Positions 20,095 through 33,594 of a stretch of 64,000 nucleotides of DNA are shown here, piece by piece. Both the position numbers and the translations under genes were made by a program. The DNA is from Hyphomicrobiales bacterium (GTDB lineage Bacteria > Pseudomonadota > Alphaproteobacteria > Rhizobiales > Rhizobiaceae): the NCBI GenBank assembly GCA_900468535.1, contig UBTY01000009.1, forward strand, positions 186,001 through 250,000, given 5' to 3'. Position 1 is the stretch's first letter; each line of letters opens with the position of its first letter. The notes beneath the pieces were generated by a model that searched no databases, was not told the DNA's origin, and worked only from the letters and a program-made list of their open reading frames with translations.

Positions 20095-20664
20095 TTAGTT
20101 CTTTGCGCGTTCGACGTAGGAATTGTCTTCCGTCGCGATCACGACGCGGGTGCCGGCATCGATGTGCGGCGGGACCGAGGTGCGGACGCCGTTCGACAGC
20201 ATGGCCGGCTTGTAGGAAGACGATGCCGTCTGGCCCTTGACGACCGGCTCGGTCTCGGTGATCTCGAGCGTTACGTGCCGCGGCAGCTGCAGGGCAAGTG
20301 CGACGCCTTCGTGCATCGACAGGATGCAGACCATGCCTTCCTGCAGGTAGGCCTTCTGGTCGCCCATGGTTTCGACGTCGACGACGACCTGGTCGTAGGT
20401 TTCCGGGTTCATGAAGTGGAAGCCTTCGCCGTCCTCATAGAGGAACTGGTGATTGACGTCTTCCACGAAGGCGCGCTCGACCTGCTCGGTCGTGCGCCAG
20501 CGCTCGGACACCTTCACGCCATCGACGATGCGGCGCATGTCGACCTGGGTGACCGGCGTGCCCTTGCCCGGGTGGAAGTTGTTGGCCGTCAGAACGACGT
20601 AAAGCTTGCCGTCAACATCGAGGACGTTGCCCTTGCGAACAGAAGAGGCGATGATCTTGACCAT
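20095..20664 (-). CDS. efp: Translation elongation factor P
   Basis: 189-residue, three-domain tRNA mimic that rescues ribosomes stalled at polyproline stretches. Lys34 at the tip of the first domain (FHPGKGTP) is the residue that receives (R)-beta-lysine in the EpmA/EpmB system. The enzymes for this are encoded right across the divergent 149-base promoter region, which explains the Lys34 form. C-terminal OB domain ends with [18 protein letters not shown]. Confidence 0.97.
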
Positions 20665-20813
20665 AAGAGTTCCTTGTAACTCGGCTTTTGGCGTCGTAGA
20701 GGACTGTCGAAATAGTCCCGGAGACGCAATCAGGTATTCTTTGGGGGCGCAACTAACCTAAAATCCGGCAAATTGCCAGCCCTGGATTGGCTGATCGGTC
20801 AGGACTTGTTCGA

Positions 20814-21878
20814 ATGAAAGCTTCGATCACCAATGTCTCCCCCTGGTGGACGCCCAGCGTTCATGCGGACCGTCGTCCGTTCCTGATGGGGCGGAATGCT
20901 GTCCAACTGGCCGTGCGGGGGTATTTCCTGCGCGAAGACTTCGTCGAGGTCGACACGGCGGCGCTGCAGGTTTCTCCCGGAAATGAAGCGCATCTCCATG
21001 CGTTTGTCACCGAAGCGCTGACGACCGACGGGCAGGCGACGCCTCTCTATCTCCACACCTCGCCGGAATTCGCGTGCAAGAAGCTGCTGGCCGCCGGCGA
21101 GCAACGGATTGCCTGTTTCGCCCATGTCTACCGCAATCGCGAGCGCGGACCTCTTCATCACCCTGAATTCACGATGCTTGAGTGGTATCGAACTGGCGAG
21201 AGCTATGAGAGCCTGATGCACGATTGCTCCAGGATCGTCGCTCTTGCTGCGGAAACGACGAAGAATCCGAAGTTCGTCTATCGCGGCAAGGAGTGTGATC
21301 CCTTCGCCGAAGCTGAGAGGCTCAGCGTTGCCGCGGCATTCGACCGGTTTGCCGGTATCGACCTGCTGGCATCGATTTCGTCTGATGGTTCGACCGATGT
21401 CGAGCGTCTGGCATCCGACGCAAGGAGCAACGGGATTCGCGTTGCCGATGACGACGGCTGGGCAGATGTCTTCAGCCGTGTGCTGGTCGAACGCGTGGAG
21501 CCGCATCTTGGCGTCGGGCGTATGACGATCCTCGACGAGTATCCCGTTTCGGAAGCGGCGCTTGCGAGGCCTTCCGCGCGGGATCCCCGCGTGGCCGAGC
21601 GGTTCGAGGCCTATATTTGCGGCGTCGAGCTTGCTAACGGCTTCGGGGAGCTGACCAACGCTGTGGAACAGCGTCGACGCTTCGAGATCGAAATGGCGGA
21701 AAAGTCGCGGATCTACGGCGAGACCTATCCAATCGACGACGATTTTCTGGATGCGCTGGCGATCATGCCTGATGCGAGCGGTATTGCACTCGGCTTCGAT
21801 CGCTTGGCGATGCTCGCTACCGGTGCGTCGCGGATCGACCAAGTGCTGTGGGCGCCTGTCGCGGAGTATGGGCAATGA
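20814..21878 (+). CDS. epmA: EF-P-(R)-beta-lysine ligase (GenX/PoxA/YjeA)
   Basis: 354-residue paralogue of the class II lysyl-tRNA synthetase catalytic domain without the anticodon-binding domain. It attaches (R)-beta-lysine to Lys34 of EF-P. Motif 2 reads FAHVYRNRERGPLHHPEFTMLEWYR and motif 3 GIALGFDRLAML. The ATG at 20814 (MKASITNVSPWW) has AGGAC 8 bases upstream and is preferred over a start at 20787. Divergent from its substrate gene efp and overlapping epmB by 4 bases. Confidence 0.95.
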   Translation: MKASITNVSPWWTPSVHADRRPFLMGRNAVQLAVRGYFLREDFVEVDTAALQVSPGNEAHLHAFVTEALTTDGQATPLYLHTSPEFACKKLLAAGEQRIACFAHVYRNRERGPLHHPEFTMLEWYRTGESYESLMHDCSRIVALAAETTKNPKFVYRGKECDPFAEAERLSVAAAFDRFAGIDLLASISSDGSTDVERLASDARSNGIRVADDDGWADVFSRVLVERVEPHLGVGRMTILDEYPVSEAALARPSARDPRVAERFEAYICGVELANGFGELTNAVEQRRRFEIEMAEKSRIYGETYPIDDDFLDALAIMPDASGIALGFDRLAMLATGASRIDQVLWAPVAEYGQ

Positions 21879-22924
21879 ATGTCGTGAGGCCGGTCAAGTC
21901 GCTCAACGACCTTTCCGAAGCCGGTCTGCTTCAGGGCCGGGACAAGGCCGAGCTTGAGAAGGTTTCGGCGCGCTACGCGATTGCGCTCACGCCTACCATT
22001 GCGGGATTGATCGATCCAGCTGATCCGGCCGATCCCATCGCGCTTCAGTTCGTGCCTGATGCCGCGGAACTTCACGTTACTCCCGAAGAGCGAGCGGATC
22101 CGATCGGAGATCATGCCCATAGCCCGGTCGAAGGGATCGTGCATCGTTACCCGGACCGCGTGCTTCTCAAGGCCGTGCACGTCTGCCCAGTTTACTGCCG
22201 CTTCTGCTTCCGGCGTGAAATGGTTGGCCCTCAGGGGCTTGGAACGCTCGACGCGGCGGCGATGACGGCTGCGTTCGACTACATCCGGTCGCATGACGAG
22301 ATATGGGAGGTCATTCTGACTGGCGGGGATCCGTTGGTGCTGTCGCCTCGTCGCCTGGGTGACATCATGGGTGAACTGGCATCCATCAGCCACGTCAAGA
22401 TCGTCAGGTTTCACACGCGTGTCCCCGTCGTCGATCCGCAGAAGATCGATGCGGCGCTGATCGACGCGCTGAAGCGTAGCGGCAAGACGGTTTACGTTGC
22501 CCTGCATGCCAATCACCCGCGCGAAATGACGGACGAAGCGCGGTCCGCGTGCGGTCGTCTTGTGGATGCGGGTATCGCCATGGTCAGCCAGTCCGTGCTC
22601 CTGAAGGGCGTCAATGACGATCCGGCAGTGCTTGCCGCGCTGATGAGAGCCTTTGTCGAGACGCGCGTGAAGCCATACTATCTTCACCATCCCGACCTTG
22701 CGCCGGGCACCAGTCACTTCCGCCTGACGATCGAGGAGGGGCAGAAGATCGTCGCGGCGCTGAGAGGCCGGATCTCCGGACTCTGCCAGCCGAGCTATAT
22801 TCTCGATATACCCGGCGGTTATGGCAAAGCAGCCATCGGAGCACAACCTATCCGACATATGGAGGATGGATGCTATATCGTGTCCGACTTCCAGGGGCGT
22901 GAGCATACCTATCCGCCCACCTGA
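21875..22924 (+). CDS. epmB: EF-P beta-lysylation protein, lysine 2,3-aminomutase type
   Basis: 349-residue radical SAM enzyme that turns L-lysine into (R)-beta-lysine for EpmA. The cluster motif CxxxCxxC is Cys104, Cys108 and Cys111 (HVCPVYCRFCFRRE). The sequence has the KamA family blocks LTGGDPLVLSPRRL and YYLHHPDLAPGTSHFR. ATGA overlap with epmA indicates coupled translation. The shorter length compared with true clostridial KamA (about 416) fits EpmB. The free-standing aminomutase role of long KamA proteins is therefore unlikely. Confidence 0.95.
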   Translation: MNVVRPVKSLNDLSEAGLLQGRDKAELEKVSARYAIALTPTIAGLIDPADPADPIALQFVPDAAELHVTPEERADPIGDHAHSPVEGIVHRYPDRVLLKAVHVCPVYCRFCFRREMVGPQGLGTLDAAAMTAAFDYIRSHDEIWEVILTGGDPLVLSPRRLGDIMGELASISHVKIVRFHTRVPVVDPQKIDAALIDALKRSGKTVYVALHANHPREMTDEARSACGRLVDAGIAMVSQSVLLKGVNDDPAVLAALMRAFVETRVKPYYLHHPDLAPGTSHFRLTIEEGQKIVAALRGRISGLCQPSYILDIPGGYGKAAIGAQPIRHMEDGCYIVSDFQGREHTYPPT

Positions 22925-23187: not shown

Positions 23188-23439
23188 ATGAATACGACAA
23201 TCCGCGAACTTCTGGTCAAGTTCGGTAAGCTTCCTGTCGCCGTTGACCAAGTGGCCGATGAAGCGGATCTCTACGCAGCGGGTCTTACTTCCTTTGCTTC
23301 CGTACAGCTGATGCTCGGCATCGAGGAAGCGTTCGACATCGAATTCCCGGATAACCTTTTGAATCGAAAGTCTTTCGCCAGCATTTCGGCGATTGCCAAG
23401 ACGATCGAAGTCATCAAAGACAGCCGGAAAGTTGCTTAA
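23188..23439 (+). CDS. Aminoacyl carrier protein (ACP-like, phosphopantetheine-binding)
   Basis: 83-residue acidic ACP fold. The expected phosphopantetheine site is Ser35 in AAGLTSFASVQL; the usual DSL is replaced by TSF, as I recall for the small carrier proteins served by seryl-tRNA-synthetase-like ligases in rhizobia. GGAG lies 9 bases before the ATG. It is the first gene of a tight run: its TAA is followed immediately by the ATG of a flavoprotein gene, and a matching amino acid:[carrier protein] ligase is third. That it carries glycine or alanine is inferred from the characterised Bradyrhizobium and Agrobacterium ligases. Confidence 0.85.
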   Translation: MNTTIRELLVKFGKLPVAVDQVADEADLYAAGLTSFASVQLMLGIEEAFDIEFPDNLLNRKSFASISAIAKTIEVIKDSRKVA

Positions 23440-24621
23440 ATGAACATGCCGGTCAAAATCACGGAAGAAGATCTGAGTGTCAGGGTTTCCCGGGTTGCGG
23501 CAATCGCTGCCAAGCACGCGGACTCCGTTGATTTTGAAGCGAGGTTCCCGAGCGAAGCTGTTGAGGCAATGAAGGCCGAGCGGCTGCTCGGCATCCAGAT
23601 CCCCAGCCAGTTCGGTGGGGAGGGCGCAACGATCGCACAGATCGCCGAGCTCTGCTCGATGCTGGGTCAGGCCTGTTCGGCCGCGGCGATGGTGTTTGCG
23701 ATGCACCACATCAAGCTCTGCAGCCTTGTCGAGCACGGTGAAAGCAGTGAATGGCACCGTTCCTTCATGCGCCGTGTGGCCGCCGAGCAGCTGCTCGTCG
23801 CATCCGCGACCACGGAGGGCGGCATCGGCGGCAATCTCCGAAACAGCATCTGCGCTATTTCGATCGAGGGCAAGACCTGCCGTCTGGAGAAAGATGCAAC
23901 AGTCATTTCCTACGGCTCCTATGCCGATGCGATCATGATCACGTCTCGCGCCCATGCGGATGCGGCGTCTTCGGATCAGGTTCTGACCGTCTTCCTGCGC
24001 GATCAGTACACGCTCGAAAAGACTCACGTCTGGAACACGCTCGGCATGCGCGGAACCTGTTCCGACGGCTTCCTTTTCAAGGGTGAGGCGCCGGCCGACC
24101 AGATCTTGCCGAAGCCGTTTGCGGAAATCGCGGCGCAATCGATGCTCGCCTCCTCGCATCTCCTGTGGAGCAGCGTCTGGTATGGCATCGCGGTCGATGC
24201 GGTTGCTCGCGCGCAGGCATTCGTTCGTGCCGCTGCGCGCAAGTCTCCAGGTTCGCCGCCGCCGGGTGCGCTGCGCCTCGCCGAGGTTTCCAATCTTCTG
24301 CAGATGGTTCGATCCAACGTGGTCGCCGGGCTGAAGGCATATGAAGACGCCAAGAGCGATGGCGACAAGCTCTCGTCGATGGGCTTTGCGGTGACGATGA
24401 ACAACGTCAAGATCGCGTCGTCGGAGACCATTCTCGAGATCATCAACCATGTGATGCTGATCTGCGGCATCATGGGGTACAAGAATGGCACGCCTTTCAG
24501 CGTCGGCCGTCATCTGCGCGATGCACATTCGGCGCAACTTATGATTTCCAACGACCGCATACTCGGAAACACGTCGAGCATGCTGCTGGTCCACAAGCAG
24601 GACACAAGTCTACTGGGGTGA
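23440..24621 (+). CDS. Acyl-CoA-dehydrogenase-fold flavoprotein, probable carrier-protein-linked oxidoreductase
   Basis: 393 residues with the ACAD fold: N-terminal helices (to about 115), middle beta domain with [12 protein letters not shown], and C-terminal helical FAD-binding domain with [18 protein letters not shown]. In typical ACADs the C-terminal region reads RDA...IYEGT with a catalytic Glu; here the equivalent is ISNDR, so that base is missing or replaced. It starts directly after the carrier protein gene with no gap and ends 4 bases before the ligase. It may oxidise or hydroxylate an aminoacyl group held on the carrier protein, like prolyl-S-PCP dehydrogenases. Substrate is not known. 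Confidence 0.75.
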
Positions 24622-24625
24622 TGAC

Positions 24626-25534
24626 ATGGATGCACAAGTGACGTTTCTCGATCGACTCTTCGAATCGGGACTTCTCATCGATACCGGAGTTGATGGCCTC
24701 TATGGTCGCAGCGGGCAGTTCGAAGACGTCATCGCCGCCTTCGAACGTTTGATCGATAAGTTTGGTGGCGCGGATTGCGCTGAAGCCATGCGTTTCCCGC
24801 CTGGCATGAACCGCGCGTTCTTTGAGAAGAGCGGTTACATGAAGAGCTTCCCGCAGCTTGCGGGTACCGTCCACAGCTTCTGCGGCAACGAGCTCGATCA
24901 CGTCAGTCTCCTTCAATGCATGGAAGTGGGTGAGGACTGGACAGCGGAGCAGAAGGCTACCGACATCGTTCTGACGCCTGCCGCCTGCTATCCGCTCTAT
25001 CCGACTGTTGCCAAGCGCGGTCGCCTGCCGGCTTCGGGCGGCTTGTTCGACCTGCAGTCCTACTGCTTCCGCCATGAGCCGTCGCAGGATCCTGCGCGCC
25101 AGCAGCTCTTCAGGATGCGTGAGTATGTCTGCATGGGTACCGAGCAGCATGTCACCGATTTCCGCCAGCGGTGGATGGACCGTGGCGTTGAAATGATGAG
25201 CGCCGTGGGGCTCGATGTGACGATCGACGTCGCAAACGATCCGTTCTTCGGCCGCGCCGGCAAGATGCTTGCCAACAATCAGCGCGACCAGAATCTCAAG
25301 TTCGAGCTGTTGATCCCGATCACTTCGGTCAGCAAGCCCACCGCCTGCATGAGCTTCAACTACCATCAGGACGCCTTCGGCACCAAGTGGGGTCTCAACC
25401 TCGAAGATGGCAGCGTCGCGCATACGGCATGTGTCGGCTTCGGGCTCGAGCGGATCGCTCTTGCGCTTTTCCATCACCACGGACTCGACGTTAAGGAGTG
25501 GCCTGCGAAGGTGCGCCAAGCGCTGTGGGGCTGA
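24626..25534 (+). CDS. Amino acid:[carrier protein] ligase (seryl-tRNA synthetase-like)
   Basis: 302-residue truncated homologue of the atypical methanogen-type seryl-tRNA synthetase catalytic core, without a tRNA-binding domain. Characterised homologues activate glycine or alanine with ATP and load it on the phosphopantetheine arm of a small carrier protein rather than on tRNA. The zinc triad of this family appears as Cys121 (AACYPLYP), Glu166 (REYVC) and Cys270 ([14 protein letters not shown]), the last within class II motif 3. Motif 2 is around [21 protein letters not shown]. It sits two genes after its probable partner, the carrier protein. Confidence 0.9.
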
Positions 25535-25542
25535 GCGTATCC

Positions 25543-26505
25543 ATGACGGCTGTGTTCCCGGGGATCCGCCCCGAGGGCTACGAGCCACATGACTTGCATT
25601 CAAGCGAACGCATGTGGCCTGAGACCAACTGCTATGTCGACCTGTGGATCGAGGTGCTGAGCGCTGCCGGCGTTTCGCCGGAGGCCATGCTTGGCTTCAC
25701 ATTGACGCAGGATTTCGAAGGCGACCAGTTCACCTTCTTCAAGGTGCCGTTAGAAGATCTGGAGGCACTCTACGATATCCGCGTGACGGAGCTTGCGATT
25801 TTCGATGAGGTGCATCGGCACGTCGAGACGCAGATCGCGCGTGGTCGGCTTTGCCTGATCGAGATGGATTCCTTCTACATGCCGGATACGCTGGGCACGG
25901 CCTATAGGACCGAGCACGGCAAGACGACGGTTGCGATCAACCGTCTCGATTTTACCGGCAAGCGGATCGAGTATTTCCACAACGGCGGCTATCACGCGCT
26001 GCAGGGCGACGATTTCGACGGCCTTTTCCAGTTTCATCTCTCGGAAACAGATCCGCCGTTCCTTCCCTATACCGAGTTCGCCAAATTCCCTGACAGAACA
26101 AAGCCGAAGGCCGAGGTTCTCGACGTGGCAAGACGCCTGCTTGCAACCCATTTCAAGCGCCGTCCGCCGTCGAATCCGATCCGCGCCTTTGCAAGCGTCT
26201 TTCCTCAACAGGTGGAGGCGGTCGCCGAGCGGCCGTTCGGCTTCTTCCACAAGTACGCCTTCAACACCTTGCGGCAGTTTGGCGCCAATTTCGAACTTGC
26301 CGCGGATCACCTGCTTTGGCTTTCAGGAGATGAGTTCTCTGAGGCGGCCGATCACGCCCGCCGGATTTCCGAGGTCGCAAAGTCTGTCCAGTTTCAGCTC
26401 GCGCGCGCCGTAACGCGCAAGAAGTTCGAGCCTTTGGCGACTGTACTTGATCCTGCCGCAGATGCATGGGATTCCATGATGGCTTCGCTTGCGGAGCGTC
26501 TGTGA
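25543..26505 (+). CDS. DUF1839 protein, possible aminoacyltransferase
   Basis: 320 residues from the ATG at 25543. I recognise the DUF1839 blocks TNCYVDLWIEVL, FTLTQDFEGDQFTFFK and IEMDSFYMPDTLGTAYRTEHGKTT. The spacing of Cys30, His125 (RTEHGKT) and Asp136 (INRLDF), with the LxEMDSFYMP strand before the His, resembles BtrH-like proteins that transfer an aminoacyl group from a carrier protein to an aminoglycoside. From this and the position right after the ligase I infer an acyltransferase role, which is not shown. It follows the ligase by 8 bases and precedes the GH2 gene by 16. Confidence 0.7.
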   Translation: MTAVFPGIRPEGYEPHDLHSSERMWPETNCYVDLWIEVLSAAGVSPEAMLGFTLTQDFEGDQFTFFKVPLEDLEALYDIRVTELAIFDEVHRHVETQIARGRLCLIEMDSFYMPDTLGTAYRTEHGKTTVAINRLDFTGKRIEYFHNGGYHALQGDDFDGLFQFHLSETDPPFLPYTEFAKFPDRTKPKAEVLDVARRLLATHFKRRPPSNPIRAFASVFPQQVEAVAERPFGFFHKYAFNTLRQFGANFELAADHLLWLSGDEFSEAADHARRISEVAKSVQFQLARAVTRKKFEPLATVLDPAADAWDSMMASLAERL

Positions 26506-26521
26506 AGCCGAGGGCCTGAGA

Positions 26522-28996
26522 ATGCGGGGGAGACTGGCGAGTATTGGAGCGGAAACGACTCCGCTCAGCGAAGGCTGGAATCTGGTGCTGACGGAGCCAG
26601 ACGCTTGCGCCTCTCCGCACGAGTTGCCGCTATCCGGACATGTCATTCCTGCTGAAGTGCCTGGCACCGTTGCTGCTGCCCTGGAAAGAGCTGGGCTATT
26701 CGACCGTGAAAGTCCGCGGCCGCTCGACACGCAGGATGCCTGGTATGTCTGCCGCCTGTTCGACGCTCCGCCTGGTGATGCCATTCTCCGGTTCGAGGGT
26801 CTTGCGACGCTCTGCCATGTCTTTCTGAACGGCCAGGAGATCCTCGCTTCCGAAAGCATGTTTACCATGCATGAGGTCCCGGTCACGCTTTCGGGTGGTG
26901 ATGAACTGGCCATGTGTTTTCGCGCGCTGGCGCCGCGATTGTCGGAAAGTGGCCCGCGTGCGCGCTGGCGACCGCAGATGATTACGCCGCAAGGTCTGAA
27001 GAACGTCCGGACGACGCTGCTCGGCCGGATGCCCGGATGGTGTCCGGAAATTCATGCTGTCGGGCCCTGGCGTGCGGTGACGCTCGTCCGGCGCGATGTG
27101 GTTTCCATCGACAATGTTTCGGTGCGAGCGACACTTGAAGAGGATGGAACCGGCAAGCTCAGCGTCTCTCTCTATGCCGATGTCGACAATCCAAGTCTGA
27201 TGCTGCGATGTGCCGGTCGCGAGCAGCCGTTCGAGAAGGTGGGAGAGAAGCATTACTCCGCTATTCTCCGGTTGTCCGATGTCGAGGCCTGGTGGCCTCA
27301 CACGCATGGCGAACCACATCTCCATGCGTTTTCAATTGTCGTCGATGGTGTCGAGGTCGATGCCGGAAGAACCGGCTTTCGGCAGATCGAGGTCGACCGC
27401 GGTGAGGACGGCAGAGGCTTCGGACTGCGGCTGAACGGAGAGCCGGTTTTCTGCAGGGGTGCAGTCTGGACGACCGCCGACATCGTGCGGCTGCCGAGCG
27501 AGCGGCGTGACTACGAACCGTTCCTTCGTCTCGCCGCCGAGGCTGGGATGAACATGATCCGCGTCGGCGGGACCATGGCGTACGAAACGCCCGAGTTCTA
27601 TGCCCTGTGTGACGAGTTGGGCCTGCTCGTCTGGCAGGACTTCATGTTTGCCAACTTCGACTATCCGAAGAACGACAAGGCTTTCATGGCTCATGTGCAT
27701 GCCGAGGTGGAAGAATTTCTGCACGGCGTCCAAGGATCTCCGTCGATAGCGGTGCTTTGCGGCGGCAGCGAGATCTACCAGCAGGCGGCAATGCTCGGAC
27801 TTCCTGCCGAGTTCTGGAGCAATCCGATCACCGAGGAAGTCATTCCGGCAATCGCATCGCGGTTGCGGCCCGATGTGCCTTACATTCCGAACTCACCTTT
27901 CGGTGGGGCGATGCCGTTTTCACCGAATTCGGCGGTGACGCATTACTATGGTGTCGGCGCCTACATGCGCCCGCTAGCAGATGCGCGTCGCGCCGATGTG
28001 CGCTTCGCTGCGGAAAGCCTCGCCTTTGCGCATGTCCCGCAGCAGAAGACGTTGCAGCGATATCTCGATGTGCCGCCGGTCCACAGCCCCCTCTGGAAGG
28101 CGCGCGTACCCCGCGATCGCGGCGCCTCGTGGGATTTCGAGGACGTCAGGGATTTCTACCTCGGCGAACTTTACGACGTTGATCCGGCTGCCCTGCGTCG
28201 CGAAGACAAGGATCGCTATCTTGATCTCTCCCGAGCGGTCACCGGCGAGGTGCTCGAAGAGACTTTCGCGGAGTGGCGCAGGAGCGGCTCGCGCTGCAAT
28301 GGTGCGCTGGTCTGGACGCTCCAGGACCTGCTTCCGGGCCCCGGCTGGGGGGTGATCGATTCGACCGGAGAGCCGAAGCCGATCTGGTACGCGATGCGAC
28401 GTGCATTCCGGCCCGTGCAGGTGGTGTTGACGGACGAGGGAACCAACGGGCTCGACGTTCACGTCATCAACGAGACCAATCATATCCTGAAGCTTGATCT
28501 TGAGATCGTTTGCCTTCGTCGCGGCAAGCAGCACGTCGTCAGTGGCGGACGCATACTGACGCTGGAGCCGAGAAGCCGCGAAACCTTTGCGGCTACAGAC
28601 CTTTTCGGTGCGTTTTTCGATACGACATACGCGTTTCGCTTTGGGCCGCCATCACATGACGTCGTCGTCGCGCGGCTGCGCTTGCCGGATGGCGGGCTGG
28701 TTGTCGCGGATGCGTTCTATTTCCCGATCGGGCGCGCCAAGGCATGCCATGATGTCGATATCAGCGTCGCTCTCACACGCGACGACAAGCGCTGGTTCGC
28801 CGATCTGACAACGGATTGCCTTGCGCAATCGGTCCATCTGACCGCCGACGGCTTCAGGGCAAGCGACGACTGGTTTCATCTCGCTCCGGGAGCGCCGAAG
28901 CGTGTCGAGCTTTTACCCTTGCCGGGAAAAAGCGAGGAAGATGCCCCATCCGGCGAAGTCGCAAGCATCGGCTGTGCCCGATCCTTTGCATTCTAG
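26522..28996 (+). CDS. Glycoside hydrolase family 2 protein, beta-mannosidase-like
   Basis: 824 residues from the ATG at 26522 (GAGGG 9 bases upstream). N-terminal jelly-roll domain (to about 170), immunoglobulin-like domain, then a TIM barrel from about 280 to 610. The acid/base Glu417 in CGGSEIYQQ is preceded by Ser instead of the usual Asn of GH2 enzymes; the probable nucleophile is Glu498 (RFAAESLAFAH). No signal peptide is present, so it acts in the cytoplasm, which is odd for a scavenging glycosidase. Fifth gene of the carrier-protein run; may trim or remodel a cytoplasmic glycan intermediate. Confidence 0.85.
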   Translation: MRGRLASIGAETTPLSEGWNLVLTEPDACASPHELPLSGHVIPAEVPGTVAAALERAGLFDRESPRPLDTQDAWYVCRLFDAPPGDAILRFEGLATLCHVFLNGQEILASESMFTMHEVPVTLSGGDELAMCFRALAPRLSESGPRARWRPQMITPQGLKNVRTTLLGRMPGWCPEIHAVGPWRAVTLVRRDVVSIDNVSVRATLEEDGTGKLSVSLYADVDNPSLMLRCAGREQPFEKVGEKHYSAILRLSDVEAWWPHTHGEPHLHAFSIVVDGVEVDAGRTGFRQIEVDRGEDGRGFGLRLNGEPVFCRGAVWTTADIVRLPSERRDYEPFLRLAAEAGMNMIRVGGTMAYETPEFYALCDELGLLVWQDFMFANFDYPKNDKAFMAHVHAEVEEFLHGVQGSPSIAVLCGGSEIYQQAAMLGLPAEFWSNPITEEVIPAIASRLRPDVPYIPNSPFGGAMPFSPNSAVTHYYGVGAYMRPLADARRADVRFAAESLAFAHVPQQKTLQRYLDVPPVHSPLWKARVPRDRGASWDFEDVRDFYLGELYDVDPAALRREDKDRYLDLSRAVTGEVLEETFAEWRRSGSRCNGALVWTLQDLLPGPGWGVIDSTGEPKPIWYAMRRAFRPVQVVLTDEGTNGLDVHVINETNHILKLDLEIVCLRRGKQHVVSGGRILTLEPRSRETFAATDLFGAFFDTTYAFRFGPPSHDVVVARLRLPDGGLVVADAFYFPIGRAKACHDVDISVALTRDDKRWFADLTTDCLAQSVHLTADGFRASDDWFHLAPGAPKRVELLPLPGKSEEDAPSGEVASIGCARSFAF

Positions 28997-29093
28997 GCCG
29001 CGCGGTCCGGAAAAATCGACCGGCTTTGCAAACCAATTTTGAAAGACTTTCACATTAGCATGGCCGGCATCAGACGGCTTGAACGGGATTGAC

Positions 29094-32000
29094 ATGTCGA
29101 AGGGAATTATTGCGAATTCGGTGATGAACGGAGCTGCAGGCATGCTGCTGCTGCTGACCGGGTTCCTTTCGTCCATCATTACCGCCCGTCTTCTGGGACC
29201 GGAAGCAAACGGCATAATTGCATTCTCGCTCTGGCTCGTCGTTACAGGCGCCTCGATTGCTGAACTGGGATCGAGCATTACGCTTGGGAAGACGCTGCCG
29301 CAGCTGCAGGCCGAAGGGTTCGACGCGCGTCGCAGGCTGGGGTTCGCATCGCTGCTCGTCACTGTGATGCTGTGCTCGACGGTCGTTCTGGTTGGCCTTT
29401 ACGCCCTGTTCTTCCTGACTTCGGAGGAAATGCACTGGGCAAAGACGGCGCCCTCGATCGCATATGTGACCGCCGCGCTCTTCTTCGTTCAGTCGATCGG
29501 GTCGTTCGTCAAATTCTACCTCATCAGTGAGCGCAGGCTCGGGGATTTCTTCAAGCTCGCGATCGGTGTCTGCGTCCTGCAGCTTGTCGGTGTTGGCGCA
29601 GGAGCGATCTTCTACGGTGTCGAGGGCGTGCTTGTCGGCTATCTTCTCGGACAGCTCGTGTTCTTCGTCGCGACTCTGCCCATCCTCTTCACCAAGCGGG
29701 ATCGATGCGGCGTGCCGCTGAAGTATTTGGCAACCTCGTCCGTCATGATCGCGGCGCAGTTCCTGATCGACTCGATCTTCCTGAACAGGGTCGAAATTCT
29801 CTTCCTGCAGCAGTTCTGGTCGGTCGAAATGGTCGGCTTCTATGCGGTGGGTCTGTCGATCGCCAATATCGCGCTGCAGCTGCCCATCCAAATGACCGGC
29901 AGCCTCTTGCCCTACTATTCCGAGCGGCGGCACACGAGCGACGACCGCGCCTTGCCGGTAGAGGTTTTCGCGGCCGTTACACGCAGCATGGCCTACATCA
30001 TTCTGCCGATGAGTTTCGGGCTTGCAGCCATTTCCGGCGAGTTGGTCCGGGTCATCTTCGGCGAAGCTTTCGACAGAAGCGGCACTGTCGTGGCACTGCT
30101 CGCGCTTGCTGCGCCCTCTTATACGTTCATGCAGACCCTGAGCCTCTATCTTCTGTCGATGGACAGGGTGCGCGATCGCGTTCGCGTCAGCGTCGTTGCC
30201 GCCGCGATCATGACGCTCGGATGTCTTGTGGTTGTGCCCTACTTCGCCGCCGAGGGCGCTGCAGTCGTCAGAATCGCCGTGTTCACGATAATGTGCGTGA
30301 TCATGGTTCGCCAGACTGGGTTCGGGAATCAGCTTTCAGGTCTATATGTAAGCCTATTGAAGACGATGACGTCAGCGGCCATTTGCGCTTGTATTGCTAT
30401 CGTTGTTTTACACTTCCTAAACGGTTCTGTTGGACTTTTGATCGCAATAACGGCCGGGGGGCTCGGTTATATTGTCGCATTGAATATCCTGAACGTAATT
30501 CCGTCCGAGGATGCCGAGGTTATGCTTTCAATTGTGGAGAAAATGCCTAGCTCGCTCAGAGGGCGTGCCAGGAAGGCTGTGGAGTTCATAGCGCCCGTCA
30601 ATCGCGACAGGGCCGAAGAGACGGCTCCAGCCGATGTCCAGTCGGATGACGATCTCTATGCGGGAACCGCGGACGGCGCCGGCCGGGAGGCAGCGATTCC
30701 GTTTGCGTTCGGTGAGACGGTCGCACTGTTCAAGCCGGAGACCACAGGCGTCAAAAAGCGCTCGACCGCGGTACTTTTCGTCAACCCCTGGGGTTTCGAG
30801 GAAATGTGCACCCGGCGCTTCTTCCGCGTTGCAGCCGAGCATTTCGCAGATGTTGGCGTGCCGAGTCTCCGGTTCGATTATCCGAACACCGGCGATGCGC
30901 TCGATCTCGGAGCTGCGCCTGCGAGCCTCGCGGTCTGGGAAGATTCGATCCGTTTGCACGCTGAGAAACTCAAGGAGCTCAGCGGTTGCGATCGCATCGT
31001 GTTCGTGGCCCAGGGCCTCGGTGCTACGCTGGCGCAACGGATTGGCCACACGATAGATGGTCTGGATGCCGTCGTCATGCTCGGCCCGGTTCTCAACGGT
31101 CGTTCCTACCTGCGCGAGCTCAGCGCATGGTCGAAGTTCATCAATCATCATCTCGGCCTGACGGAGGACGATCTTCCGAAGGACCAGCACATCATTGCCG
31201 GTCTCGTTCTGCCTGACGGCATTGCGGCCGAATTGTCCAAGCTGAAGATCGGAACGCCGGAACGGATTGCCGCTCCTCGTTACCTTATCCTGGAGCGTCC
31301 GTCGCGTGCCGACGAGACGGCTTTCGCCGACGGCCTCGGCGCTCTTGGCGCTGCGGTCGAGCAGCGGCCATTCGATGGCTATGACGATCTCGTAACCGAT
31401 CCGCTGTTCGCCAAGGTTCCGCTTGGCACGGTACACATGCTTGCCGAATGGATGGATGCGCACACGTCGCTCGATAGCAACGATGCGCGGTCCGTACAGG
31501 CCGTCGATGCCGGAGTGCTCAAAGGAAACGGCTTCGAAGAGGTGCCGGTACGCTTCGGTGAGTTCAATCACCTTGTCGGCGTGATCTGCCGTCCTGTCGG
31601 ACCCGCAAGCGGAAACGCCGTGCTGTTTCTCTCGACCGCCTATGACCGTCATTGCGGTTGGGGGCGGACGATCGTCGATATGGCCCGCAATCTGGCATTG
31701 GAGGGAGTTGCCTCGCTGCGGTTCGACTCGGCAAATGCTGGCGATAGTCCGCCACGGCCCGATGCGCCGGCTCAGATTCTCTACTCGGCTACTCAGAACG
31801 AGGATGCACGCGCGGCCGTGGATCTGCTGGAGACTGTCGTTCCCGGCCCGCTGATGGTGGCAGGGCGATGCAGCGGCGGATATCTGGCGATCCGGGCGGC
31901 TGTCGCGGACGACCGCCTGAAAGCAGCGGTGTCGATCAATCCGTTCGTGTTCTATTGGGATCCGAATCTGGCCGTCGAGAAGAGGCACGTGGTTTCCGTT

Positions 32001-32420
32001 CCACGCAGCTTCGAGGATTACGGCGAGCGCCTGGCGAGCATGGATACGTTCAAGCGCCTGATACGTGGCGACGTCGACATCAAGGCGGCTGTCAAGAATG
32101 TGTTCATTGCCTTCGCGCGACGCATGTCGGTGCGCATTGCTCCGCTGATCGAATACCTGCCGGGCCGTCGCCACACCGCTGTCGAGGTCAAGCGGTCGTT
32201 CTCGATCTTCGGCAAGCGAAAGGTGCCGCTAACGCTGATCTACAGTGAGGGCGATGTCGGTCTCGAGCATATGTACTTCCATTTCGGCCCGGGTGGCCGG
32301 AAGTTCGCGCGCCATCCGAATGTCCGGCTGGTGATGCTGGCCGACGCCGATCACAACCTTACGCCGCCGGAATCACGGCGAACCGTGTTCCAGGAAATCG
32401 TTCGGCTGGCAAAGGGTTAA
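29094..32420 (+). CDS. Fusion of a Wzx-like oligosaccharide flippase with two alpha/beta-hydrolase domains
   Basis: 1108 residues in one uninterrupted frame. Residues about 1-470 are a polysaccharide flippase (MOP superfamily; 12 or more helices, with SSIITARLLGPEANGIIAFS near the start). A charged linker follows. Hydrolase domain A (about 553-800) has FVNPWGFEEM and SLRFDYPNTGD, but its nucleophile elbow AQGLG places Gly641 where Ser is needed, so it is probably inactive. Domain B (about 830-1108) has SLRFDSANAGDS and GRCSG with Cys926 as possible nucleophile, plus His1087 in DADHNL. It follows GH2 by 97 bases and meets the GT4 gene tail to tail. Confidence 0.85.
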   Translation: MSKGIIANSVMNGAAGMLLLLTGFLSSIITARLLGPEANGIIAFSLWLVVTGASIAELGSSITLGKTLPQLQAEGFDARRRLGFASLLVTVMLCSTVVLVGLYALFFLTSEEMHWAKTAPSIAYVTAALFFVQSIGSFVKFYLISERRLGDFFKLAIGVCVLQLVGVGAGAIFYGVEGVLVGYLLGQLVFFVATLPILFTKRDRCGVPLKYLATSSVMIAAQFLIDSIFLNRVEILFLQQFWSVEMVGFYAVGLSIANIALQLPIQMTGSLLPYYSERRHTSDDRALPVEVFAAVTRSMAYIILPMSFGLAAISGELVRVIFGEAFDRSGTVVALLALAAPSYTFMQTLSLYLLSMDRVRDRVRVSVVAAAIMTLGCLVVVPYFAAEGAAVVRIAVFTIMCVIMVRQTGFGNQLSGLYVSLLKTMTSAAICACIAIVVLHFLNGSVGLLIAITAGGLGYIVALNILNVIPSEDAEVMLSIVEKMPSSLRGRARKAVEFIAPVNRDRAEETAPADVQSDDDLYAGTADGAGREAAIPFAFGETVALFKPETTGVKKRSTAVLFVNPWGFEEMCTRRFFRVAAEHFADVGVPSLRFDYPNTGDALDLGAAPASLAVWEDSIRLHAEKLKELSGCDRIVFVAQGLGATLAQRIGHTIDGLDAVVMLGPVLNGRSYLRELSAWSKFINHHLGLTEDDLPKDQHIIAGLVLPDGIAAELSKLKIGTPERIAAPRYLILERPSRADETAFADGLGALGAAVEQRPFDGYDDLVTDPLFAKVPLGTVHMLAEWMDAHTSLDSNDARSVQAVDAGVLKGNGFEEVPVRFGEFNHLVGVICRPVGPASGNAVLFLSTAYDRHCGWGRTIVDMARNLALEGVASLRFDSANAGDSPPRPDAPAQILYSATQNEDARAAVDLLETVVPGPLMVAGRCSGGYLAIRAAVADDRLKAAVSINPFVFYWDPNLAVEKRHVVSVPRSFEDYGERLASMDTFKRLIRGDVDIKAAVKNVFIAFARRMSVRIAPLIEYLPGRRHTAVEVKRSFSIFGKRKVPLTLIYSEGDVGLEHMYFHFGPGGRKFARHPNVRLVMLADADHNLTPPESRRTVFQEIVRLAKG

Positions 32421-32427
32421 GGCCGGC

Positions 32428-33594
32428 TCAGCCGGCGATCAGCTGCTCGTAGACCGAGATGTATCGGTCTGCGACGACGTCCCAGGAATAATCACCTGCT
32501 TCTTTCAGCAGTTGCGCCCGAATTGCGGGCGCTTTTGCCTGAAGACGTTCGAAGGCTGCGTCCAGCGCGTCTGCCGCCGTCGCCGCATCGGAAAAGTCCG
32601 TCACCGAGATCTGTTCGTGGCGTTCCGCCAGTGTCTTGTAGGCTTCGTTGGCATTCAGCACTGGCAGGAGGCCTGCGCTCATAGCCTCCAGCGCGACGAG
32701 ACCGAATCCTTCGTAAGCCGACGCCGACGCGAAGATCGACGCGCCTGACATGATCTGGCGAATGGCGTCGTTTTCAGGCGAAACGTGGATCGTGATTGCC
32801 GTTTCGATACCGAGTTTCTTGGCCTGCTCGACAAGCTCGTTTCGGCTCAGATCATACTCCACCCCGATGATATCGAGATGCCAGTCTTCCGATCGGGTCC
32901 TCAAGGCGGCAAGGCTCGCGAGCAGATTATCCAGCCGCTTGTTCGCCGAGAATCGGCCGATGGTGACGATTCGACGCCGCGGGATCCTGGAAGCCTTGTC
33001 TGCAAACTTGCCGATATCTGCACCGTTCTCGATGACGATGGTCCGGCTCGGCGCAATCTTCGAGAACTGCCGGAGATCGGACATGCTGCAGCCGATCACC
33101 TTGTCGTAGGCCATGGCTGAAAGGCGGGTGATGGTCTGAAACCAAACCTTCTTCAGGGATGCGTAGTTCGGGGTGTGGAAGAAACCGCCATGCGTCGTCA
33201 CGACCATCGGCTTCCGATGCATCGGCCGCCCCCAGGCGAGCGCGTCGTAAAAGAAATCGATCGCGTGGACGTGGATGAGATCAGCGTCCGAGAGGTGGCG
33301 GAAGACCTGCGGCGCGATCGGATATCGCGTGCTGCCCGACCACGGGATACGGACGACCTCAGTGCCGTTTATGAACTCATGAGCCGGCAGTTTGGAATCG
33401 GGCGTCGTGAACAGCGAGTCCAAGGTAACGACCCGGACGCGGTAACCGCGCTTGAGCGTGTGCTTTGCAAGGTTTGAGACAACGTCTTCCAGGCCGCCGC
33501 GGTTCGGCAGGAACTGGCGGATGACGTGGACGATCAGCGGCGCGGAAGCGACTGATGGCTCTGCGTCTTTGACGTAGGTTTCGACGGCTGACAT
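32428..33594 (-). CDS. GT4-family glycosyltransferase
   Basis: 388 residues with the GT-B fold. The N-terminal domain has FLPNRGGLEDVVSNLAKH (donor/acceptor loop) and the C-terminal half begins IVTIGRFSANKRLDNLL; the EX7E motif is EGFGLVALE in SASAYEGFGLVALEAMSAG. No signal peptide or membrane helix; such enzymes add a sugar from a nucleotide donor to a lipid-linked glycan at the inner membrane face. GGGGTGAG precedes the ATG. It is convergent with the flippase fusion gene (7-base gap) and probably works in the same glycan pathway. Confidence 0.9.
   Translation of the reverse strand: MSAVETYVKDAEPSVASAPLIVHVIRQFLPNRGGLEDVVSNLAKHTLKRGYRVRVVTLDSLFTTPDSKLPAHEFINGTEVVRIPWSGSTRYPIAPQVFRHLSDADLIHVHAIDFFYDALAWGRPMHRKPMVVTTHGGFFHTPNYASLKKVWFQTITRLSAMAYDKVIGCSMSDLRQFSKIAPSRTIVIENGADIGKFADKASRIPRRRIVTIGRFSANKRLDNLLASLAALRTRSEDWHLDIIGVEYDLSRNELVEQAKKLGIETAITIHVSPENDAIRQIMSGASIFASASAYEGFGLVALEAMSAGLLPVLNANEAYKTLAERHEQISVTDFSDAATAADALDAAFERLQAKAPAIRAQLLKEAGDYSWDVVADRYISVYEQLIAG

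Follow-up and report, generated by a model that had tools for sequence, protein, structure and literature searches.

Amino acid:[carrier protein] ligases were reported in 2010, and a review of 2022 calls the biological role of amino acid attachment to carrier proteins (CPs) unknown (PMC9437257). In a note in proof of 2010, a ligase of this kind was linked to liposaccharide genes and to genes for an acyl carrier protein, a redox enzyme, a glycosidase and Atu2574, a conserved protein then uncharacterised; the same note predicted an amide on a cell-surface sugar (PMC2922099). The subject of this account is a locus with the same genes and the same proposed chemistry (amide on a surface sugar, monooxygenation), at positions 23188-33594 of a 64,000-nucleotide stretch of contig UBTY01000009.1 (the whole stretch is called the window below). 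The genome is taken as Rhizobium; the window's DUF1839 protein, the centerpiece of what follows, shares 97% identity with its counterpart in Rhizobium sp. Root708. The original prediction for this DNA, that a CP-bound amino acid is used to modify an exported glycan, is a rediscovery, since the 2010 note in proof had already predicted it, and its remark that the later fate of the loaded amino acid is unclear fails for the same reason (PMC2922099). From gene order we infer that Atu2574 is the DUF1839 protein. The available part of that paper assigns the conserved protein no fold, and it mentions neither a covariation of its cysteine with the ligase nor a link to Burkholderiaceae exopolysaccharide (PMC2922099). 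These points, together with the relationship of DUF1839 to CcbD and CtaG, the existence of Cys-less paralogues and a missing catalytic base in the redox enzyme, are believed to be new, as judged within the open-licence literature.

Other described systems resemble the locus in part. D-alanylation of teichoic acid by the Dlt system is alike in moving an amino acid from a small CP to an envelope polymer. Dlt uses an adenylating enzyme, DltA, and an MBOAT protein, DltB; the cassette described here has instead a ligase resembling aminoacyl-tRNA synthetases (aaRS) and a papain-like DUF1839 protein, and its CP shows only sub-cut-off similarity to DltC. CcbD and LmbD condense CP-tethered proline with the amino group of a thio-octose by way of a cysteine thioester, making contacts to the CP (PMC12945683). 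A full-length fold, a cysteine nucleophile and a CP-bound aminoacyl donor are common to CcbD and DUF1839; CcbD and LmbD differ in their adenylation-domain partner, their small-molecule product and an identity to DUF1839 of only 12-14%. CtaG (closthioamide) and AziU3/U2 (azinomycin) have the same full-length fold and serve small-molecule pathways. BtrH (butirosin), an ACP:aminoglycoside acyltransferase, is papain-like and also transfers an acyl group from a CP to an aminoglycoside (PMC10318531); DUF1839 has no BtrH_N match at E 0.01.

We consider it likely, in outline, that the locus encodes an aminoacyl-CP pathway by which an exported polysaccharide or glycolipid receives its decoration, with DUF1839 as the proposed transferase. 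The cassette itself is real, conserved and functionally coherent. Its genes and the two that follow are laid out as follows.

23188-23439, plus strand: CP of 83 amino acids, phosphopantetheine site Ser35 (PF00550, PP-binding; NF005480)
23440-24621, plus strand: flavoprotein of acyl-CoA dehydrogenase (ACAD) fold, with no glutamate at the two usual base positions (PF02771, Acyl-CoA_dh_N; PF00441, Acyl-CoA_dh_1)
24626-25534, plus strand: amino acid:[CP] ligase, class II aaRS-like, DUF1839-linked type (NF005479)
25543-26505, plus strand: DUF1839 protein, papain-like, proposed CP-dependent aminoacyltransferase with nucleophile Cys30 (PF08893)
26522-28996, plus strand: GH2 glycosidase (GH2 domains; closest solved relatives are beta-mannosidases)
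29094-32420, plus strand: fusion of a MOP flippase, a nucleophile-less hydrolase-2 domain and a hydrolase-1 domain with a Cys nucleophile (Polysacc_synt_3; hydrolase 2 and 1 matches below cut-off)
30711-32402, within the fusion (residues ~540-1103): its two alpha/beta-hydrolase domains, the first nucleophile-less, the second with a conserved Cys
32428-33594, minus strand: convergent GT4 glycosyltransferase (Pfam; best NCBIfam name TIGR03088, PEP-CTERM/XrtA glycosyltransferase, below cut-off)

Gene calls, Pfam and NCBIfam bear out the gene set and order originally read from the letters: the intergenic gaps from CP through ACAD, ligase and DUF1839 to GH2 are exactly 0, 4, 8 and 16 bases, 97 bases separate GH2 from the fusion, and the GT4 gene converges on it. 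The "flippase-hydrolase fusion" is indeed a fusion, refined in that it carries two alpha/beta-hydrolase domains, with a nucleophile in the second only.

What kind of enzyme is DUF1839? The family assignment is secure (PF08893, 435.8 bits against a gathering score of 22.5, E 1.2e-130). A survey of 2023 puts DUF1839 among the papain-like proteins, lists a Cys-(Thr/Ser)-His set for it and guesses from context that it has a role with glycans (PMC10318531). A structure model built from 41 Rhizobium and Agrobacterium sequences (predicted local distance difference test, pLDDT, 86) has only three full-length matches in the PDB: CcbD, CtaG and AziU3 (Foldseek E 1e-5 to 4e-3). Superposition on these three aligns 266-289 residues at a root-mean-square deviation of 3.5-4.4 and VIA Z scores of 16.6-17.7; the next chain scores Z 7.2. 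The CcbD-type match spans model residues ~12-320, that is, the papain-like part and a helical C-terminal part, and it is this common C-terminal part that sets DUF1839, CcbD, CtaG and AziU3 apart from the listed proteases. Cys30 begins a model helix (residues 30-41), as expected for a nucleophile of the CcbD/CtaG type, and Cys30, His125, Thr128, Thr129 and His146 are present in 49/49 alphaproteobacterial proteins. At the sequence level, a DUF1839 profile found no credible match among PDB sequences, and Pfam found only PF08893, and no BtrH_N domain, in DUF1839 at E up to 0.01.

Evidence that DUF1839 works with the ligase comes from Burkholderiaceae. (A technical note: the family of genome G516 is called Burkholderiaceae here on the strength of one cassette, L245, that matches Cupriavidus megaplasmids over its full length at 80.6-83.9%, and another, L214, that best matches Caballeronia over one third.) Among 150 genomes of the family, 60 have DUF1839 and 63 the ligase: 58 have both, two DUF1839 only, five the ligase only. 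There are 86 DUF1839 copies, 58 of them directly after a ligase, with 35-231 bases between the matched parts; these 86 were aligned with the 49 alphaproteobacterial copies. Every genome with DUF1839 and an over-cut-off ligase (57/57) has one or more copies in which Cys30 and His146 are both kept, and none of the three without such a ligase keeps a Cys30 copy (0/3): theirs are Cys-less, with Arg, Ala or Ser instead. Two of these three, G563 and G651, have no ligase match, and the third, G590, has a single remote match, at 113.6 bits, which lies on a different contig. The three belong to three genera; G563 and G590 have the same gene order, and at least two, though not surely three, independent loss events are therefore represented. 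At the level of sequence, this covariation ties the ligase to the presumptive catalysis by DUF1839. The proposal that DUF1839 is the transferase is thus supported by its CcbD-type fold and by the retention of its cysteine where the ligase is present; the reaction that it catalyses would be of the CcbD kind.

Of the 25 genomes with several DUF1839 copies, 22 keep a single intact one. Ten of these (genera g249 and g278) show Arg or Gln in place of the cysteine in the operon copy, while the other copy is intact and lies ~4.8 kb away in seven, 2.6 kb away in G599, 8.5 kb away in G622 and on another contig in G521. In twelve genomes of genus g248 it is the operon copy that is intact and the distant copy that has Ala, Ser or Gly. 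The remaining three vary the theme: G634 (genus g248) has two intact copies and one Cys-less copy; G657 has two cassettes, both with intact DUF1839; G676 has two copies that keep Cys and His146, one with Arg at 125, neither directly after a ligase. (Paralogue-bearing examples are L245:12202-13368, L263:10063-11130, L262:9190-10284 and L248:9036-10067; one copy per genome is Cys-less.)

Neighborhoods of the ligase were compared in a sample of 297 genomes drawn from the order Rhizobiales, with 67 stretches around matches examined and the window counted among the loci. Of the 297 genomes, 49 have DUF1839 and 70 a ligase match, 64 of the latter over cut-off. The order and strand of the genes for CP, ACAD, ligase and DUF1839 are constant throughout the 49 DUF1839 loci; ligase and DUF1839 adjoin in every case, which is more than chance, their matched parts 5-451 bases apart. 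Next comes GH2 in 48 of 49 (in L078 only after 2.6 kb); the stretch of the 49th, L090, stops at a contig end. The predicted linkage thus holds for ligase, DUF1839 and GH2, and only partly for the flippase. Eighty named loci, the best among the matches listed and all from Rhizobium, Agrobacterium or unnamed Rhizobiales, some in records that end at a contig end, give the same picture: ligase, DUF1839 and GH2 in 80/80, ACAD in 79, CP in 78. In a sample of the phylum DUF1839 is rare (12/299 genomes, six of them from the window's own family). At one locus (L108, G210:C1:2515620-2516545), DUF1839 is matched as two overlapping pieces, which suggests a frameshift or sequencing error.

The loading end of the pathway is conserved too. 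Ser35 of the CP is present in 49/49 alphaproteobacterial loci and in 19/19 aligned Burkholderiaceae CPs. The ligase matches NF005479 ("amino acid--[acyl-carrier-protein] ligase") at 521.6 bits against a cut-off of 357; its closest solved structures are 4h2w and 3mey, of Bll0957. Homologous ligases load Gly or Ala on small CPs. Cys121, Glu166 and Cys269, together with Arg149, Glu151 and Arg276, are kept at 95% or more in both types of ligase, that is, with and without DUF1839; by Bll0957 numbering they would be zinc ligands and class II motif residues, respectively.

It was also suggested that this pathway gives the orphan ligases a purpose. That may be so for the DUF1839-linked type, and does not extend to the 15 over-cut-off ligases of the order that lack DUF1839 (L109-L123). 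ACAD is present in their stretches; GH2 and the double hydrolase were not found there, and 12 of the 15 loci have a weak, divergent CP match on the opposite strand. The 15 ligases form one clade (support 98/100), so that the pathway does not explain all orphan ligases; a second, different aminoacyl-CP pathway may exist around them. (The ligase tree was used for this clade only: rows below 250 amino acids were excluded, the B_L255 row was mis-extracted, giving a branch length of 10, and the bootstrap had not settled.) By eye, a GNAT-like protein is seen in 10 of the 15 stretches, directly after the ligase in family f35; the idea that it is a hidden DUF1839 was dropped, as it shows no profile similarity.

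In the ACAD-fold protein both ACAD domains (N-terminal PF02771, C-terminal PF00441) are over cut-off, and in all 64 proteins compared the catalytic glutamate is absent from both of its usual positions, those of the SCAD and IVD types, as placed by alignment to 7p98. The residues found there are His240 (64/64, and in 19/19 Burkholderiaceae proteins) and Ile369 (64/64). With no glutamate at either base position, simple desaturation is unlikely. Its matches include nitrososynthases (DnmZ, 3mxl) and dehydrogenases alike, and the predicted model (pLDDT 47) is too poor to help. Monooxygenation of the aminoacyl group, already proposed in the 2010 note in proof (PMC2922099), would fit an ACAD without its base.

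Is the acceptor a glycan for export? In the order, seeded glycosyltransferases (GTs) are found at 29/49 loci and seeded flippases at 13/49. A first neighborhood control was biased, many of its seeds having been drawn from cassette loci. With independent single-sequence seeds, from Burkholderiaceae only, the signal is weaker: polysaccharide genes are detected at 15/49 alphaproteobacterial loci against 1/20 controls and 1/15 DUF1839-free ligase loci, and at only 4/20 matched loci, one sugar-transferase seed accounting for 11 of the loci. Of 19 Burkholderiaceae loci, 16 have at least one seeded polysaccharide class and 13 at least two (two of the 19 supplied seeds). Whole-genome Pfam searches place Bac_transf within 12 kb of DUF1839 in 15/18 Burkholderiaceae genomes (expectation 0.28) and find a flippase within 16 kb in 7/20 alphaproteobacterial genomes (expectation 0.33); the 18 (of 60) and 20 (of 49) genomes were chosen by the author, and the Fisher and Poisson-binomial values ignore shared ancestry.

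Neighbors of the cassette in other alphaproteobacterial families include a priming sugar transferase, Wzy_C, GTs, a flippase, GH5 and a deacetylase. R. johnstonii 3841 has an additional GT, which lies between GH2 and the fusion. In Burkholderiaceae the neighbors include ManC, Wza, Wzc, Wzy_C, Bac_transf and a VpsR-type regulator: at L214 the five-gene core lies between three GT4s plus Wzy_C on one side and Wza plus Wzc on the other, and L254 reads VpsR-type regulator, flippase, GT2, double hydrolase, CP, ACAD, DUF1839, Crp, GT2, Wza, Wzc, GT4. The ligase-free sets of L254 and L328 both sit among polysaccharide genes. The ACAD, DUF1839, Crp-type order of L254 resembles the neighborhood of becE and becG in the becA-R exopolysaccharide cluster, where becE encodes a cyclic-nucleotide-binding protein and becG, close to it, an "acyl-CoA dehydrogenase domain-containing protein" (PMC5507470); we infer that becG is a candidate counterpart of this ACAD. 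A becG transposon mutant forms less biofilm (optical density at 600 nm 0.84, wild type 1.25) and cluster mutants have smooth colonies; becF, between becE and becG, was not found in that mutant screen (PMC5507470). The bep cluster is called homologous to bec (PMC5507470), and a TIGR03100 hydrolase is listed in the homologous B. cenocepacia cluster (PMC3584217). The case for an exported glycan as the target is thus supported by gene context in both groups.

A number of observations weigh against this picture. Eighteen of the 49 alphaproteobacterial loci lack any seeded flippase, GT, sugar-transferase, Wza, Wzc, Wzy_C or deacetylase class, and only 3/20 genomes have a flippase within 12 kb, so that the result depends on the radius. 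To our knowledge, no amino-acid substituent is known on a glycan from such a cluster. Three ligase-free Burkholderiaceae loci (L253, L254, L328) still have CP and ACAD, and in the two that were aligned, L253 and L254, the CP serine is retained, as are most ACAD invariants; CP and ACAD may therefore serve some purpose for which this ligase is not required. The published DUF1839 triad, Cys-(Thr/Ser)-His, differs in order from the Cys-His-Glu of CcbD (PMC10318531, PMC12945683). Among the seven bec mutants tabulated, that of becG is the least impaired in biofilm formation (0.84, the others 0.43-0.66; PMC5507470). And the water-insoluble polysaccharide of Bep-overproducing B. cenocepacia consists of Gal, Glc and Man only, with no amino sugar; ester groups would have been stripped, since extraction was in 0.3 M NaOH and spectra were read in NaOD (PMC7084887). 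The three ligase-free loci also contain the double hydrolase; no ligase or GH2 was found in the stretches examined, whose gene maps hide some real genes under overlapping frames. That CP, ACAD and hydrolase are present there without GH2 implies that the ligase, an active DUF1839 and GH2 come and go together, and that the model does not explain everything.

The GH2 protein is closest among solved structures to beta-mannosidases (best match 5n6u, E 6.4e-55). Two glutamates, catalytic by analogy, are conserved (Glu417, 48/48; Glu498, 47/47 rows with a letter), and no obvious signal peptide is seen by eye. Ser precedes the acid/base Glu in 47/48 proteins, where Asn is usual; the change perhaps reflects an altered sugar preference at C2. 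In the fusion, the nucleophile position of the hydrolase-2 domain is Arg (22/41) or Gly (19/41), that is, no nucleophile, while the hydrolase-1 domain keeps Cys926 (41/41), Asp1054 (40/41) and His1087 (41/41). The double hydrolase occurs near the cassette in either orientation, mostly as a separate gene (at L170 flippase and double hydrolase are likewise separate). In the Agrobacterium loci examined it stands alone and inverted, with no GT4 found; in the R. tropici group loci examined neither double hydrolase nor GT4 was found. Fusion and GT4 are thus less firmly linked to the cassette than is the core. Hydrolase 1, hydrolase 2 and TIGR03088 are names from XrtA modules, the best in NCBIfam for these genes and all below cut-off; no exosortase (PF09721) was found in this genome (0/1), and an exosortase link was rejected for it. 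Just upstream of the cassette (20095-22924) lie genes named by eye as EF-P (minus strand), EpmA-like and EpmB-like. They are beside it in 62/80 named loci and absent from the Agrobacterium stretches examined, and were rejected as pathway members; the adjacency is a Rhizobium position effect.

The sequence of events that we favor can be put in four steps: 1) The ligase would activate a small amino acid (Gly or Ala, as expected of its family) and load it onto the phosphopantetheine of the CP. 2) The ACAD would act on the CP-bound aminoacyl group, oxygenation or another oxidation being likelier than alpha,beta-desaturation. 3) Cys30 of DUF1839 would take the aminoacyl group from the CP and pass it to a sugar amine (or hydroxyl), as CcbD does. 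4) GT, flippase and, where they occur, polymerase genes would build and export the glycan, while GH2 might trim or recycle beta-mannoside-like intermediates in the cytoplasm and the Cys hydrolase might remove or transfer misplaced acyl groups. A more ambitious version, possible although on the whole doubtful, would make this a widespread proteobacterial system for modifying exopolysaccharide: an oxidised amino acid would reach the glycan through an aaRS-derived ligase, a CP, an ACAD-fold oxygenase without its base and a papain-like transferase, and the Cys-less DUF1839 paralogues would serve as carrier-docking or heterodimer partners of the one active copy, re-used where the ligase has been lost.

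Must the product be a substituted polysaccharide? The closest structural relatives of DUF1839, CcbD and CtaG, come from small-molecule pathways, and at the Rhizobium locus a flippase is accompanied by one or two GTs, with no polymerase, Wza or Wzc seen in the stretches examined; the cassette could accordingly make a small soluble or membrane-bound aminoacyl-sugar (a signal, an antibiotic or a glycolipid). We think this unlikely in view of the Burkholderiaceae loci, where seeded polysaccharide classes recur (16/19) and Pfam names Wza, Wzc, Bac_transf, ManC or Wzy_C in the loci scanned. It is very unlikely, in our estimation, that DUF1839 is a hydrolase (a peptidase, or a thioesterase that clears mis-loaded CP) and that another enzyme, such as the hydrolase-1 domain, is the transferase. 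A papain-like fold is common to proteases, hydrolase 1 does have a Cys-Asp-His set, and the double hydrolase is retained in the three ligase-free loci; yet DUF1839 has both of its parts in common with CcbD, CtaG and AziU3 and not with proteases, its cysteine is lost when the ligase is lost, and no double hydrolase was found around 17/49 alphaproteobacterial cassettes.

It could also be argued that only the run from CP to GH2 is one pathway, and that fusion and GT4 serve an unrelated envelope function and are adjacent by chance. The 97-base gap before the fusion would agree with that, as would the inverted double hydrolase of Agrobacterium without GT4 and the R. tropici group loci with neither. 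Chance adjacency nevertheless seems rather improbable, given that the double hydrolase recurs at 32/49 alphaproteobacterial and 8/19 Burkholderiaceae loci and in 0/20 control regions of alphaproteobacterial genomes.

For the decoration of an exported glycan, which remains our preferred reading, these loci offer a specific transferase whose nucleophile can be named and a probable class of acceptor, and the joint loss of cysteine and ligase amounts to an experiment done by nature. If the reading is true, an aminoacyl substituent, possibly a charged one, would be present on surface polysaccharides in Burkholderiaceae as well as in rhizobia, agrobacteria and several further families of the order. 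Such a substituent could alter adhesion, biofilm formation and contact with plant or other hosts, and would link relatives of the tRNA synthetases to the chemistry of the bacterial envelope.

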